Below, in pieces: positions 11,997 to 48,686 of a stretch of 53,540 nt of DNA. Each line of letters starts with the position of its first letter. Within the stretch, counting starts at the first letter, position 1. The position numbers and the translations under genes were made by a program. The DNA comes from Eubacteriales bacterium (lineage in GTDB: Bacteria; Bacillota; Clostridia; Oscillospirales; Oscillospiraceae), in the NCBI GenBank assembly GCA_030533415.1, contig JAUNJE010000015.1:1-53540 (forward strand), written 5' to 3'. The notes below the pieces were generated by a model that saw nothing but the letters and a program-made list of their open reading frames with translations, was not told the DNA's origin and did not search any database.

Positions 11997-12013
11997 CGTA
12001 TTTCTTTTGGGGA

Positions 12014-12325
12014 TTATTCGGCAAAGTCGGTTTCCTCGGCAACAGGCTCATTCTCAGCCACGACGACCTCGGGAACTGGCTCCTCAGCAGGCTCCTCGGC
12101 AGCGGGGGCCTCCTCGGCTGCGGGAACTTCCTCTGCGGGAGTTTCCCCAGCGGGAACTTCCTCTACGGTCTCGGCTTTCTCACAGCCGGGGCACTTGGGC
12201 AGGCATGCCAGGGTCTTCTTTGCCCAGGCCACGATCTGCTCACCATAGGTGGCAACAATGTAGATGGCGCCGGCAACGGTAGCCAAAGCGGTCAGGACCT
12301 TCAGGACAGCGTTCAGGGTTTTCAT
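12014..12325 (-). CDS. small single-pass membrane protein with acidic Pro/Ala/Glu tail
   Basis: A 103-residue protein of no recognised family. Residues about 4-28 form one hydrophobic helix (LNAVLKVLTALATVAGAIYIVATYG). A short amphipathic stretch and the Cys cluster CLPKCPGC come next. The tail of about 50 residues is built almost only of Glu, Ala, Pro and Val. The ATG at 12325 has GGAGG 8 bases upstream; an upstream in-frame ATG at 12340 overlaps that site. The Cys motif could bind a metal, but this is not shown. The repeated Glu-Ala-Pro codons are locally repetitive DNA. It ends at a bidirectional terminator. Confidence 0.75.
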   Translation of the reverse strand: MKTLNAVLKVLTALATVAGAIYIVATYGEQIVAWAKKTLACLPKCPGCEKAETVEEVPAGETPAEEVPAAEEAPAAEEPAEEPVPEVVVAENEPVAEETDFAE

Positions 12326-12434
12326 GAGATCAACCTCCAAATTTTACTTTCGTCTATTGTAGTATAACCAATGGGTGGGAAAAAAGCAATGGACATTTTA
12401 AGAATTTTGGTAAAAAAGGAAAATTATACTGATA

Positions 12435-12647
12435 ATGCGAATCGAGAGTTAAATTGTTTGAAAAAAAACGGGAAAACACACCAGTTGTCATCCTGAGCGG
12501 GCGGAGCGAGTCGAAGGATCTTGGCACTTAAGTTACGTACCAAGAAAAAGCAAATGCGAAGATCCTTCGACTCCGCCGCCTTTGGCGGCGCCCCTCAGGA
12601 TAACAGCCGTTCAGAATGCTTTCACTGTTTCAACTCTTGATTCACAT
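12435..12647 (+). mobile_element. MITE-like element, copy A
   Basis: A 213-bp non-coding element, nearly identical (about a dozen differences) to the element at 15128-15339, which lies in the opposite orientation. The ends are imperfect inverted repeats that begin ATGCGAATC and, on the other strand, ATGTGAATCAAGAGTT. The interior is a long imperfect palindrome containing GTCATCCTGAG and CTCAGGAT arms. It is bounded on both sides by the 5-bp direct repeat TGATA (12430-12434 and 12648-12652), a target-site duplication. It lies 8 bases beyond the birA stop codon. There is no internal gene, so it would need a transposase supplied in trans. Confidence 0.85.
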
Positions 12648-12660
12648 TGATATTTCATTA

Positions 12661-13458
12661 TTACAGGTAGCCGTACATGCCCCGGACGCTGACTTCGCCG
12701 GAATTCACCGCTTCCACGCTGCCATCGGCGAAGGCGACCACCAGTGCGCCGTTATCATCCACATCCAAGGCCCTGCCATGGCGGACCTGGTCTCCCCGCA
12801 GCAGGGAAATTTCCCTTCCGATGGTGATGCAGTCCCGGCGGTATTGGGCAAGCATTGCATCCTTCTTCGTCAGCAGGGCCGCATCCATCTTTTCCAGGGC
12901 TTCCATCATGGCCGCGGCCACCTTGGCCCGGGAGATCTCCTGCCCGGAAGCCATGGCCAGGGATCCGGCGATTTCCCGAATCTCCGGGGCGAAATCGTCC
13001 TCCCGCTGGCAGCAGTTGATGCCGATGCCGATGATGGCGAAATCCACCTTCCCCTGGGATGTCAGCCCCAGTTCCGTCAGGATGCCCCCCAGCTTTTTCC
13101 GGCCATATACCAGATCGTTTGTCCACTTGATGCCGGGGCGGAAGCCCGCCGCCTGCTCCACGGCGCCGCACATGGCAATGGCGGTGGCGCAGGTCAGGTG
13201 CATCAGCTCCCCGGGGGCGCAGTCCGGACGAAGAAGGATGCTCAGGTAGATCCCCATGCCCGCAGGGGAGAGAAAGGTCCTGCCCCGGCGGCCATGGCCG
13301 CCGGTCTGGCGGTCGGCAATGAGTACCGTGCCGTGGGGCGCCCCCTGGGCGGCCAGCTGCTTCAAGCGGTCATTGGTGGAATCCACCTCCAAAAAGCATT
13401 GGAGCTGTTCCTTCCAGGGGTACCCGGGAGACAAGCAAGTAAGGATCTGCTCTTTCAT
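12661..13458 (-). CDS. birA: biotin--[acetyl-CoA-carboxylase] ligase (monofunctional)
   Basis: Activates biotin with ATP and attaches it to a lysine of biotin-carrier proteins. The 265-residue protein holds the catalytic and C-terminal SH3-like domains only. Signatures are EVDSTNDRLK, GGHGRRGRTFLSPAGMGIYLS (the biotinyl-AMP loop, where GRGRRGR is usual) and KWTNDL (KWPNDL in most homologues). The N-terminal DNA-binding domain of bifunctional BirA is missing, so it should not act as a repressor. It starts 2 bases after the stop of the upstream membrane acyltransferase-like gene, implying cotranscription. MITE copy A ends just past its stop codon. Confidence 0.93.
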   Translation of the reverse strand: MKEQILTCLSPGYPWKEQLQCFLEVDSTNDRLKQLAAQGAPHGTVLIADRQTGGHGRRGRTFLSPAGMGIYLSILLRPDCAPGELMHLTCATAIAMCGAVEQAAGFRPGIKWTNDLVYGRKKLGGILTELGLTSQGKVDFAIIGIGINCCQREDDFAPEIREIAGSLAMASGQEISRAKVAAAMMEALEKMDAALLTKKDAMLAQYRRDCITIGREISLLRGDQVRHGRALDVDDNGALVVAFADGSVEAVNSGEVSVRGMYGYL

Positions 13459-13460
13459 AC

Positions 13461-14879
13461 TCAGTCAATGTCACGCAGGACTTCGTCGGGAGGACGGTCC
13501 AGAATTTCGGGATGCTGCAAAATGCGCTTATAGTGTTTGAAAAAGGCAGCGTAGTAGAAGCCGTCCACGATGCGCTCGTCCATCGTGAACTTCACGTCCA
13601 CATACTTGCGCTGCACCACGGTGCCGTCCTCCAGCACCTCATTGGCCCGCCGCTTCATGCCGAAGGAGCCGAACACAGGCAGGTTGCCGAAGTCATAGAG
13701 GTGGTGGTAAATGGGCGGAATGCCCAGGCTGCCCATGGAGGTGAAGAACAGGGAGCCGTGGAAGGGGCTGACCTCCAGCAGGAACTTGGGCAGAAGGCCG
13801 AAGTAATCCAAAAGCTTCAGCAGCCAAACCACGAATTTCAGAAACACGCCGGGGATCAGGGTGAAAATGCCCGCGGTATTGTCAAAGCTGGAGTCCAGGG
13901 GGGTGTTTTTCACGTTGTCCACTATGGCCTGGTACTTGTAGTATACGTCGGCGGCGGTATCCCTGGGGGTCAGGTGCACCTTGATGACGGTATCGGGAGA
14001 ATCGGAACTCATCTCCTTTTTGATGGTCATACAGTACTGGATGTCCTCTCCCCGGGAGTAGACCTTCTGGCCGGCGACAAAACGGTTCAGGCCGGGATAC
14101 TTGCACAGGCACCGGCAGTAGCAGGCCAGCAGCACATGGGTGATGCCGAAATTGGTCAGGCCCTCCCGGCGCTTCTGGCGGATGTAGCGGTCCACATGGC
14201 TGATCTCCAGGGATTCCTCAAAATAGTTGGTGGAGGTATTCCGGGTGACCATGATGTAAGGGGATACCTGGGACATGGGAGGCAGCGACCGGAGCCGTCG
14301 GCCGTCAGAGCGGTCCCCCCAGGTGGGGTGATATTCCCCCAGCGGATGGATCCGTACGGCAAACACCATCAAAAGGACGCCACCCAGCATCAGAATATCG
14401 GCAAGATACAGCTTCAGTGTGTCCAGATTGCCGCTCAACAGGGTGCTCCGGCAGCAGTACAGGATGAAAAGCAGCGGAATGCCCACAACGGGCAGCAGCA
14501 GCAAAACGGCGTGCGCACGGTGGCCCGCGGTAATATCGGTGTAGAGGGAAGCGAAGAACACCAGCGCGATCCAGAACAGCCAGATGATCAATTTGCTTGC
14601 AACGTTTGTGGAGATCCAAAGGCCGGCGTAAAGGGCCATTAGCCATACGGGGATGGCGGTTTTGTAGAAAAGCTCCTCGCCGCTCAGGAGGGCGATCAGC
14701 GCATACAGTGCGGTAGCCGCGATTGGCAGGACGATTTGGCTCCACACGTACAGCGAATCCCCGGACCCTTTCAAACCGGAGAACGCAATGCGGGCCACTG
14801 CCGAAACCACCATGCACAGCGCCATCAGCCAGGTCAGCGCGTTTTTGCGGCTGACATAAAGATGAATTCTATTTTTCAT
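13461..14879 (-). CDS. membrane protein fused to a 2-oxoacid dehydrogenase E2 (CAT-like) acyltransferase domain
   Basis: A 472-residue protein with two parts. Residues about 12-205 hold some six hydrophobic segments. From about residue 230 the sequence resembles the catalytic domain of 2-oxoacid dehydrogenase E2 acyltransferases (chloramphenicol acetyltransferase fold). It shows SQVSPYIMVTRNTSTNYF, THVLLACYCRCLCKYPGLN, SLFFTSMGSLG and a C-terminal MDERIVDGFYYAAFF. In true E2 enzymes that last motif is DHRxVDG; here the catalytic His is Glu (about residue 435). There is no lipoyl domain and no E1 or E3 gene nearby. The ATG at 14879 lies only 8 bases after a consensus -10, so the message may be leaderless. 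It is followed by birA after 2 bases. The substrate is unknown. Confidence 0.75.
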   Translation of the reverse strand: MKNRIHLYVSRKNALTWLMALCMVVSAVARIAFSGLKGSGDSLYVWSQIVLPIAATALYALIALLSGEELFYKTAIPVWLMALYAGLWISTNVASKLIIWLFWIALVFFASLYTDITAGHRAHAVLLLLPVVGIPLLFILYCCRSTLLSGNLDTLKLYLADILMLGGVLLMVFAVRIHPLGEYHPTWGDRSDGRRLRSLPPMSQVSPYIMVTRNTSTNYFEESLEISHVDRYIRQKRREGLTNFGITHVLLACYCRCLCKYPGLNRFVAGQKVYSRGEDIQYCMTIKKEMSSDSPDTVIKVHLTPRDTAADVYYKYQAIVDNVKNTPLDSSFDNTAGIFTLIPGVFLKFVVWLLKLLDYFGLLPKFLLEVSPFHGSLFFTSMGSLGIPPIYHHLYDFGNLPVFGSFGMKRRANEVLEDGTVVQRKYVDVKFTMDERIVDGFYYAAFFKHYKRILQHPEILDRPPDEVLRDID

Positions 14880-14887
14880 ACAGAGAT

Positions 14888-14916
14888 AGTATATCAAATT
14901 CCCGCATATTTGGCAA
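14888..14916 (-). promoter_or_regulatory. promoter placing the start codon at +1 (leaderless)
   Basis: On the minus strand TTGCCA (14916-14911), a 17-base spacer and TATACT (14893-14888) are followed after 8 bases by the ATG at 14879. Transcription from this promoter would begin within one or two bases of the ATG. No Shine-Dalgarno is visible. Confidence 0.6.
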
Positions 14917-15055
14917 TAAGAAAAGCAGGCCTTTTGCCCGCTTTTTTGGAAGATTGTCGAAAAAAGAAGTTGAGAAATACAACAAAGTCCTGGGGATAAT
15001 GGTATCATGCCGAAATATGGTCTGATGTCTGCCGGCTGAACGCAGCAGAATAAAA

Positions 15056-15626
15056 TTGCAGCGCACCAAAGCCTCCCTTGTGCAAAGGGTAAGCGAAGCG
15101 CTCAGAAACTTTTACTGCATTCTTCTAATGTGAATCAAGAGTTGAAACAGGGAAAGTATTCTGAACGGCTGTCATCCTGAGGGTCGCCGCCAAAGGCGGC
15201 GGAGCCGAAGGATCTTCGCGTTTGCTTTTTCTTGGTACGTAACTTAAGTGCCAAGATCCTTCGGCTCGCTCCGCTCGCTCAGGATGACAACTGGTGTATT
15301 TTCCCGTTTTTTCCAAACAATTTAACTCTTGATCCGCATTTCTACTATAACAAAATCGGACAGCCTTTGCGCGGGGGTGCCTTGGGCGTTCCCGCACCAG
15401 TACAATCAATGTTCCCGGTTGATTTGTTCGTCCTTGACAGGCAGCTACGGCGGGGCGGCGGGGGTTTCCAAAGGGGGCGCGTTTGCACCTAGCGCCCCTT
15501 TGGTCGGCTTCTTTCCGTCCCTTTCTTGCCGAAACAAGAAAGGGACATCCCCGTCTCCTTGAGAAGACAACCAAAACGTACAATTTACCGAATTTCAGCG
15601 CTCCCAAAGCCCCCTTGTACGTTGTA
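15056..15626 (-). repeat. 353-bp structured repeat, copy 1, interrupted by a MITE
   Basis: Read on the minus strand, this region matches 48334-48686 end to end at roughly 85-90 percent by eye, once the MITE (15128-15339) and one 5-bp duplication are removed. A 93-base core (15454-15546) is identical to 48414-48506. The core folds into two hairpins: GTCCCTTTCTTG pairs with its exact complement, and CCAAAGGGGCGC pairs with GCGCCCCCTTTGG. Both ends carry a related sequence of the form CAAGGGRGGCYTKGGTGCGC in direct orientation. No transposase or convincing gene lies inside. It covers the 5' side of the small ORF at 15682. Confidence 0.85.
15128..15339 (-). mobile_element. MITE-like element, copy B
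   Basis: The 212-bp inverted counterpart of copy A. It is bounded by perfect 5-bp direct repeats TTCTA (15123-15127 and 15340-15344), which read TAGAA on the element's own strand. It is inserted in the 353-bp repeat. The uninterrupted copy of that repeat has a single TAGAA (48616-48620) at exactly the corresponding point, flanked by the same bases on each side. This full-site/empty-site pair defines the element ends (ATGCGGATC...GATTCACAT) to the base. Confidence 0.9.
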
Positions 15627-15681
15627 CACGCCCGAGGGAACGGCAATTCGCGGTCATGAAGATTTTGATTCCCTGCCGGAA

Positions 15682-15897
15682 ATGCTGTGCCGTTATTACA
15701 CGGAGTTCTACCCCGCGGAAAACGAATCCATCAGCGAAGCGTATGCGTCCATTCTGCCCCGGATCCAACCGCTTTCCCATAAGCGGGAGAGAAGACTGCT
15801 TTTTATCATTGGTCAGCTGTGCCAGGAGCATGAACGGGCGGCCTTTCAAGAGGGGGTCCGTGTCGGCGCGCAGCTGACGATGGAGCTTGCGGAATGA
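15682..15897 (+). CDS. short ORF resembling DUF6809, 5' end uncertain
   Basis: The last 71 codons of an open frame (MLCRYYTEFYPAENES...) look protein-like. The ending LFIIGQLCQEHERAAFQEGVRVGAQLTMELAE resembles the C-terminus of small DUF6809-type proteins in clostridia. The frame continues upstream but enters the 353-bp repeat at 15626, and no start has a good ribosome-binding site. It may therefore be a gene whose 5' end was replaced when the repeat arrived. The ATG at 15682 is only the most conservative start. Confidence 0.4.
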   Translation: MLCRYYTEFYPAENESISEAYASILPRIQPLSHKRERRLLFIIGQLCQEHERAAFQEGVRVGAQLTMELAE

Positions 15898-15978
15898 AAA
15901 AATCACCCCTTCGCCTGGCCAAACCCCTCCGGTGGAAAATTACGCGCGGAAGGGGAAAGTACAGCCCTGTGGCGGAAA

Positions 15979-16021
15979 AATGTCATCCCGGGCTTCGGTT
16001 CACGGCCCCCAGGATGACATT
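15979..16021 (-). terminator. terminator of the mtnN-methyltransferase operon
   Basis: The arms AATGTCATCC and GGATGACATT, extended by GGGC/GCCC, form a long hairpin 4 bases after the methyltransferase stop codon on the minus strand, followed by TTTTCC. The TGTCATCC/AGGATGACA arms are the same words found in the inner arms of the MITE elements. Confidence 0.7.
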
Positions 16022-30786: not shown

Positions 30787-32145
30787 ATGCTGAATCAAAA
30801 GGACATTCTGACGACCCAGGATATGATCGACAAGCGGCATTTGGACATCCGCACCATCACCATGGGCATTAGCCTGATGGATTGCTGTGACCCGGACCTG
30901 AAGGCCTGCTGTGACAAGATTTACAGGAAGATCACCCGCTGTGCCAGGGACCTGGTGAAGGTGGGGGAGAACATTGAGAAGGAATTTGGCATTCCCATCG
31001 TCAATAAGCGGATTTCCGTTACGCCGGTTGCCATTGTGGCCGGCGCCTGCGAGACGGATTCCTATGTGGAGGTCGCAAGGACCCTGGATGCCGCCGCCAA
31101 AACCTGTGGCGTGAATTTTATCGGCGGCTTTTCCGCGCTGGTGCAGAAGGGCTGTACCACGGGGGACTGGAAGCTGATTCGCTCCATCCCCGAGGCCATG
31201 GCCGCCACGGAGCGGGTCTGCGCCAGTGTCAACGTCGGTTCTACCAAGGCGGGCATCAACATGGATGCCGTTGCCGAAATGGGCCGAATCATCAAGAAAA
31301 CCGCCGAGCTTACGAAGGATAATGACGGCCTGGGCTGTGCCAAAGTGGTGGTGTTTGCCAATGCTGTGGAGGACAATCCCTTTATGGCGGGGGCTTTCCA
31401 CGGCGTGGGAGAGCCGGAGTGTGTGCTGAATGTGGGCGTGTCCGGTCCCGGTGTGGTTTACCATGCTCTGCAAAGCGTCAAGGGCCAGCCCTTTGACGTG
31501 GTGGCAGAAACCATCAAGAAAACGGCCTTCCAAATCACCCGTATGGGCCAGCTGGTGGGCCAGGAGGCCTCCCGCCGCCTGGGGGTGCCCTTCGGCATCG
31601 TGGACCTGAGCCTGGCGCCCACTCCTGCGGTGGGGGACAGCGTGGCCCGGATTCTGGAGGAAATGGGGCTGGAGGTCGTGGGTACCCATGGCACCACCGC
31701 CGCGCTGGCACTGCTGAACGATGCTGTCAAGAAGGGCGGTGTCATGGCGTCCAACCACGTCGGCGGCCTGTCCGGTGCCTTCATTCCGGTGTCCGAGGAT
31801 GAGGGGATGATCGCTGCTGCCGAGTGCGGCACGCTGGCATTGGATAAGCTGGAGGCCATGACCTGCGTCTGCTCCGTGGGCCTGGACATGATCGCCGTGC
31901 CCGGAGATACCTCCGCCGCCACCATTTCCGCCATCATTGCCGACGAAGCCGCCATCGGCATGGTCAACTCCAAGACCACCGCTGTCCGCATTATCCCCGC
32001 ACCCAACAAGGTGGTAGGCGACCGGGTGGAGATGGGCGGATTGCTGGGCAGTGCGCCCGTTATGCCCGTTCACGATAAGTCCAGCGGCGGCTTTATTGCC
32101 AGGGGCGGTCGGATTCCCGCTCCGCTGCAGAGCCTGAAAAATTGA
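30787..32145 (+). CDS. UPF0210 (PFL, DUF711) family protein
   Basis: A 452-residue protein of the PFL/UPF0210 family, historically grouped by a remote resemblance to pyruvate formate-lyase structures but without a demonstrated reaction. Conserved stretches include [77 protein letters not shown] and the C-terminal [13 protein letters not shown]. It is paired with the ACT-domain gene. A diverged copy of its last 45 codons occurs 3.2 kb downstream, beyond the AT-rich island, which begins right after this stop codon. Confidence 0.93.
32008..32145 (+). repeat. direct repeat, left copy (3' end of the UPF0210 gene)
   Basis: The last 46 codons (with stop) of the UPF0210 gene recur at 35232-35369 in the same orientation and reading frame, with 18 differences over 138 bases. 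Only 6 of these fall in the last 96 bases. The pair flanks the AT-rich island. Confidence 0.9.
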
Positions 32146-35231: not shown

Positions 35232-35369
35232 AAGGTAGTGGGTGACCGAGCAGAGATAGCTATTTTGCTGGGCAGCGCGCCCGTTATGCCCGTTCACGAT
35301 AAGTCCAGCGGCGACTTTATCGCCAGGGGCGGACGGATTCCCGCTCCGCTGCAGAGCCTGAAGAATTAA
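35232..35369 (+). pseudogene. duplicated 3' fragment of a UPF0210 gene
   Basis: The 46 codons run [20 protein letters not shown]... to QSLKN-stop, in the same frame as the complete gene and with no frameshift. Five residues differ. There is no start codon or ribosome-binding site. Since the copies are diverged, this is not a fresh duplication. It marks the right border of the AT-rich island, and either the island came in with a foreign copy of the gene end or the fragment has been decaying. Confidence 0.88.
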
Positions 35370-48262: not shown

Positions 48263-48333
48263 CCGGGGCTTGAAATTTTTGATTTATGCTTATCGGGATT
48301 ATGCAGCAGATACGCCTGTCATGCACTGGCGCT

Positions 48334-48686
48334 TACAACGCGCAAGGGGGCCTTGGGTGCGCTGAAATTCGGTAGATTGTACGGTTTTGTTATCTTCTCA
48401 AGGAAACGGGGGTGTCCCTTTCTTGTTTCGGCAAGAAAGGGACGGAAAGAAGCCGACCAAAGGGGCGCTAGGTGCAAACGCGCCCCCTTTGGAAACCCCC
48501 GCCGCCTCTCCGTAGCTGCCTATCAAGGACGAACAAATCAACCGGGAGCATTGATTGCACTGGTGCGGGAAAGCCTAGGGCACTCCCGTGCAAAAGCTAC
48601 CCGATTTGGCTATAATAGAAGAATGCAGTATAAATTTCTGAGCACTAAGGCTCCCTTTGCACAAGGGAGGCTTGGGTGCGCCGCAA
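48334..48686 (+). repeat. 353-bp structured repeat, copy 2 (uninterrupted)
   Basis: An intact copy, in the opposite orientation to copy 1 at 15056-15626. It contains the 93-base invariant core (48414-48506) with its two hairpins. It also holds a weaker stem around CCGGGAGCATTGATTG, and related CAAGGGRGGCYTKGGTGCGC sequences at both ends. TAGAA (48616-48620) is the empty site matching the MITE insertion in copy 1. It fills most of the 608-base gap between tldD and the M56 gene. A 115-codon open frame crosses it, but there is no ribosome-binding site. Confidence 0.85.

Follow-up and report, generated by a model that had tools for sequence, protein, structure and literature searches.

Within a 53,540-nucleotide stretch of an Oscillospiraceae draft genome (Eubacteriales bacterium, assembly GCA_030533415.1, contig JAUNJE010000015.1; hereafter the window) lie two nearly identical palindromic repeats, copies A and B, which raise the question of what they are and what moved them. 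We propose, with a probability of roughly 0.87, that both are non-autonomous copies of a miniature inverted-repeat transposable element (MITE), whose terminal inverted repeats are recognised in trans by the DDE transposase of an IS982-related insertion sequence (IS) with ends beginning AT. An earlier sequence-only reading had proposed a MITE-like element moved by transposition, and its ends, its 5-bp duplications, an empty site and an IS with the same termini support that view. What goes beyond it is the likely parent, an IS982-related branch, and the finding that in other species the same ends enclose MITEs whose interiors differ.

Ends, duplications and empty site

Copies A (12435-12647) and B (15128-15339) share 93.9% identity over 213 alignment columns and are mutually inverted, which agrees with the roughly 94% identical palindromic copies with inverted ends described before. 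Scanning the window with the end pattern ATGYGAATCAAGAGTTRAA at up to three mismatches returned four matches, exactly the four element ends, compared with 0.04 expected in shuffles. Two of these 19-bp ends are perfect, and one end of each copy has one mismatch. The perfect 5-bp direct repeats reported earlier are present: copy A is flanked by TGATA on both sides and copy B by TTCTA on the + strand, which corresponds to TAGAA on the other strand. Since A and B have unlike flanks and are each bounded by a separate duplication, we read them as two apparently independent insertions. The features are as follows, with the basis of each in brackets.

12430..12434, no strand: target-site duplication TGATA, left of copy A (flank comparison)
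12435..12647, + strand: MITE copy A, 213 bp (alignment, own-genome copies)
12435..12453, + strand: left terminal inverted repeat of A, differing from the pattern at one position (end-pattern scan)
12486..12605, no strand: interior palindrome of A, TGTCATCC...GGATAACA (sequence, folding)
12629..12647, - strand: terminal inverted repeat of A, right (end-pattern scan)
12648..12652, no strand: target-site duplication TGATA, right of copy A (flank comparison)
15123..15127, no strand: target-site duplication TTCTA, left of copy B (flank comparison)
15128..15339, - strand: MITE copy B, 212 bp, in the opposite orientation to A (alignment, own-genome copies)
15128..15146, + strand: terminal inverted repeat of B, left (end-pattern scan)
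15170..15289, no strand: interior palindrome of B, TGTCATCC...GGATGACA (sequence)
15321..15339, - strand: right terminal inverted repeat of B, differing from the pattern at one position (end-pattern scan)
15340..15344, no strand: target-site duplication TTCTA, right of copy B (flank comparison)
48616..48620, no strand: the one TAGAA that marks the empty site in the other host-repeat copy (repeat alignment)

Copy B is placed at the edge of one of two copies of a 293-bp host repeat, the inverted arms of which (15340-15632 and 48328-48620) are 90% complementary. The second repeat copy contains one TAGAA at 48616-48620 with continuous flanks, which is the empty site for B and bears out the earlier claim that one is preserved. 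With 212-213 bp the element has no transposase gene, as there is room for at most 71 codons, and the two mechanically called open reading frames (ORFs) merely overlap an end. Copy A forms a long hairpin on folding (z -7.85 vs shuffles). Two other assignments were tried and rejected. Reading A, B and the intervening ~2.5 kb, which include a biotin protein ligase gene and one more ORF, as a composite transposon was discarded because each copy has its own duplication and the duplications differ. An RNA family was discarded as well, as no Rfam family matched window positions 12000-16000 at the gathering threshold.

The draft genome itself (2.72 Mb, 80 contigs, 88.5% complete) yielded 26 matches: 14 over the full query, one over positions 1-212, two without one end and nine that are shorter or interior-only. 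Near-full-length copies of this ~212-bp family thus number 17 and are dispersed on 14 contigs. Leaving out L010 and L016, which each lack one end, 15 copies with both ends were compared for duplications. The sequence-only reading had named copies without 5-bp duplications, or with ends elsewhere, as evidence that would speak against it; perfect 5-bp duplications were found at 11/15 copies and the same terminal bases in 14/15. L006 has a 6-bp duplication, L003 and L013 match at 4/5 positions, and L017, which differs at its right terminal base, matches at 3/5 and is counted as having none. Exchanging flanks between copies gave perfect 5-bp matches in 5/210 combinations. Perfect matches were also counted at other lengths (2 bp, 4/15; 3 bp, 1/15; 6 bp, 1/15; 4, 7, 8 and 9 bp, 0/15), and the duplicated sequences are AT-rich 5-mers. 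When flanks were joined across each copy in a crude test, a candidate spanning frame (120 codons or longer) appeared at 6/17 copies and none at 11/17; the one that spans copy A is antisense to the biotin ligase gene.

Four of the 17 copies (L002, L003, L009, L014) are located at the same point next to an AT-rich dispersed motif, TTTATAAAGAAACAGTA-TTA; read by eye, 45 bp on the right side of L014 are the reverse complement of those on the left side of L009. The window holds this motif twice in inverted orientation, at 44-62 and at 70-88, each time with one mismatch.

A likely partner insertion sequence in other genomes

The earlier reading had asked for an IS with the same termini, and one was found in other genomes: it is ~960 bp long, has ends ATGCGAATCAA..., is flanked by 5-bp duplications and encodes one DDE transposase. 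Contig-end fragments from three genomes (G013, G015, G007) show these ends joined to other sequence, and a 38-aa tail encoded there led to a full ORF in G141, which is the same sequence as Pseudoflavonifractor sp. MSJ-30. G141 has the intact gene and the right end, with the stop codon inside that end; the left IS end is decayed. A complete 961-bp element with TAGAA on both sides and a 271-aa ORF was obtained from an IMG/VR contig (L189) by an exact end-pattern scan of viral contigs. In G843, from the same family, the copy measures 951 bp, is bounded by TTTCA at either end and has its frame broken in two. Elements annotated 'transposase' on plasmids pAT1 and pAT3 of Aureibacter tunicatorum (978 and 979 bp) have the same kind of ends, ATGCGAATCAACAGT / ATGCGGATCAATAGTT, a GTATA duplication in both copies and 44.2% protein identity to L189. 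They differ in belonging to another phylum (Bacteroidota). A relative on a Salinibacter plasmid has GATTCGCAT at the end of the matched frame; since an exact search found no left end, we count the AT-ended branch in two phyla and not three. One arm type of the MITE is close to an IS end: the arm of copy L004, of the same type as the left end of A, agrees with the right end of the G141 IS at 27/30 bases.

IS982 (NF033520) is the top NCBIfam model for both intact proteins, at 137.7 bits for G141 and 121.4 for L189 with a cut-off of 130, and in Pfam the partner transposases match DDE_Tnp_1. L189 shares 25% protein identity with Lactococcus IS982. An alignment of four sequences including the latter has D91, D178 and E228 among its invariant columns, and by their position these residues may form the catalytic triad. 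The three AT-ended proteins form one group (100/99) in a tree of eight proteins, which leaves 3/5 of its inner branches open and carries a long-branch warning. Element ends start with AT in L189, G843 and Aureibacter, not with the family-typical AC. A family survey (PMC7335449) gives 57 of 69 registered elements beginning AC and 5 beginning CC, direct repeats of 2-10 bp and lengths of 845-1282 bp; a registered AT-ended element may be among the remaining seven. The partner elements, with one DDE transposase gene and short imperfect inverted repeats, fall inside both ranges, with 5-bp repeats in L189, G843 and both Aureibacter copies and lengths of 961, 951, 979 and 978 bp. That survey gives a 5-bp repeat for ISDge8 and 8 bp for IS982 itself, compared with 7 bp by our end-finding script. 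As controls for this script, with boundaries chosen among its three best rows, IS982 elements of Lactococcus, Acinetobacter and Salinibacter gave AC ends with 7-bp duplications, unlike the AT-ended partners. B. fragilis IS1187 (CCCGTTGG with 9 bp) and an Enterococcus locus without duplication gave no clean AC. By eye, ATGCGAATCAAGAGTTAA and the Lactococcus end ACCCGAATTGCTAGTTAA agree at 12/18 positions in register. Judged from these sequence comparisons, the partner is likely an IS982-related branch with divergent AT ends at the edge of IS982.

The ends, duplications, empty site and dispersal of the MITE can be read directly in the sequences, as can an intact IS in another genome that shares its ends and duplicates the same number of bases, and we infer that a transposase of the AT-ended IS982-related branch moved these copies. 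This transposase would bind both ~19-bp terminal inverted repeats (ATGYGAATCAAGAGTTRAA) in trans, cut at the A...T boundary and join the element to its target with a 5-bp stagger, which would therefore leave 5-bp duplications, while the palindromic interior would be a passenger sequence. Because none was found in the incomplete source genome, the enzyme may have been lost, not assembled or supplied from outside.

A second parent was considered at L118 (G015:C19), a 314-bp contig end that seemed to hold the start of another transposase, and was rejected as a separate repeat. The part from ~158 on occurs without the rest in other genomes (13/136 genus genomes matched some part), and we regard it as separate because it is present elsewhere without the AT-ended IS tail (~157 bp). 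It is perhaps another IS inserted in the AT-ended IS, and may be IS256-like. Upstream of the G141 transposase (L154/L182), the leader holds GGGAAGCTCTGA...TTCAGAGATTCCC, which resembles a further small inverted-repeat insertion.

Shared ends around differing interiors

At up to two mismatches the end pattern occurs in 16/101 genus genomes, the source genome included, with most hits per congener in G032 (26), G099 (22), G019 (16), G061 (6) and G015 (6). Some genomes have single hits that may be due to chance, as the reversed-pattern control gave one hit in each of three genomes. At up to one mismatch, 394 genomes drawn from the order gave the source genome and three others with one hit each. 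Of the 49 regions extracted, 46 came from congeners and three were additional sites of the source genome; 38 of them gave an end pair and 11 none. Perfect 5-bp duplications flank 20/37 pairs from other species (G099 7/10, G032 9/12, G009 1/1, G019 3/12, G113 0/1, G061 0/1); the G113 and G061 pairs match at 4/5 positions, and so does the pair L224 from the source genome. Swapped flanks gave 34/354 within species and 98/1406 over all, controls that are raised by TGTCA/TGACA, which accounts for 10 of the 20 perfect duplications.

Congeners carry MITEs that share these ends and have other interiors. As seen in the 10 of 49 regions whose interiors were printed, a TGTCATCCTGAG type occurs in G019, G009 and G032, a TGTCATTGCGAACC type in G032, TTTCATTCCGACC in G099, GGCACGGCG/CCTCCCTC in G113, GTAGGGGCGACC in G061 and another in L224. 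The GTCATCCTGAG-type interior is also found without these ends.

Several copies lie within other repeats. In G032 (L213, L217, L220, L221, L223), G009 (L206) and G019 (L235, L236, L239) they sit within TTGACAA/ATTGTCA heptamer-like arrays, and in G099 several are inside CTTCCCC...GGGGAAGG palindromes; such nesting in repeats appears to be frequent. Another MITE-like family, which has AAATTGTTGTTTA ends and the same TGTCATCCTGAG-type interior palindrome, was seen at L057, L060, L062, L080 and L081 (G005, G032, G034), with unclear duplications.

Origin of the interiors and weighing of the alternatives

Several results weigh against an IS982-related, AT-ended transposase as the mover. MITE and IS are alike in their termini only, and for the second MITE arm type the closest IS end agrees at 22/30 bases. 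Neither protein searches (E<=1e-3 and E<=1e-15) nor the IS982 profile (E<=1e-5) found such a transposase in the 88.5% complete source draft. Among 136 genus genomes the whole gene occurs in G141 alone, beside its decayed left end, and the L189 protein scores below the NCBIfam cut-off. The low share of perfect duplications in G019 also counts here. Moreover, the IS982 profile matches 16/136 genus genomes, G141 alone above the cut-off and 15 more weakly, so that another transposase may have been the mover. Further searches for a parent returned five matches in phage records, each below 60% identity, and 831 and 796 plasmid records, all below 60%. With the G141 protein as query none was confirmed in viral contigs, where the end pattern led to the one contig L189, whose protein matched itself only. 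Solved structures gave six weak matches, none a transposase.

Derivation of the MITE by internal deletion of a full-length IS followed by amplification, instead of two IS ends enclosing an unrelated palindrome, is a serious alternative that we judge somewhat less probable than even. The 27/30 arm fits it, and there is precedent: MITECca01 of Cardinium, a gene-less MITE of ~240 bp in 169 copies that belongs to the IS982-family element ISCca4, likewise keeps short subterminal IS sequence (PMC9769881). Here, such extended sharing is seen for one arm and not for the other, and the interiors differ among species with common ends at the 10 printed loci, which argues against a simple deletion product. 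MITECca01 is also a short element with ends like its IS982-family parent and amplified in one genome; it differs in that Cardinium retains intact parents in the same genome, none being found here, in its copy number compared with the 17 near-full-length copies, and in that the parent proposed here has AT ends and 5-bp duplications. Because Cardinium has an IS982-derived MITE, our element belongs to a known kind; it is notable for its divergent parent and for palindromic interiors that differ between species. Among the matches listed in a literature search, titles and abstract openings contained no description of this element.

The same ends enclose five interior types, which suggests a transposase branch that disperses host palindromes, with two of the types (G113, G061) known from one copy each with a 4/5 duplication. 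In its broadest form, a so far undescribed branch within the IS982 group, with AT ends and 5-bp duplications and present in two phyla, would repeatedly enclose and spread unrelated dispersed host palindromes, and part of the palindromes of gut Oscillospiraceae would be transposase cargo with later-decayed ends. We consider this generalisation unlikely. A selection of 32 loci with these interior types (28 search matches, not every match, plus four from the source genome) comprised 3 with both ATGYG ends, 4 with both AAATTGTTGTTTA ends, 1 with one AAATTGTTGTTTA end and 24 with neither, and these 24 speak against it. Two of the three ATGYG-ended loci, L058 and L082, are not independent because they were brought in by matches reaching the ends.

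That the interior palindrome is itself the mobile unit and inserts into various MITEs appears improbable. It would account for the same interior type between AAATTGTTGTTTA ends at 4/32 loci and beside one such end at 1/32, and for similar arms in G032 that hold two interior types (L212 vs L213 and L217). Against it, the duplications in the source genome fall outside the ATGYG ends. A regulatory or terminator palindrome that was dispersed in some other way, and whose ends are similar by coincidence, would suit the strong hairpin, the 11/17 copies without a spanning frame in the crude test and the interior palindromes that lack these ends, but is very hard to reconcile with common ends and 5-bp duplications in 11/15 copies, an empty site, a gene-bearing element sharing both ends and duplication length, and the lack of an Rfam match.

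With an IS982-related transposase as the likely parent, this repeat family of a gut genus acquires exact ends and a duplication length, so that it can be named and masked. It also draws attention to an IS982-related branch whose ends differ, and it allows a test of whether the scattered palindromes of these genomes are carried as cargo.

Elsewhere in the window, positions 32008-32143 and 35232-35367 form a 136-bp direct repeat whose copies are 88% alike.

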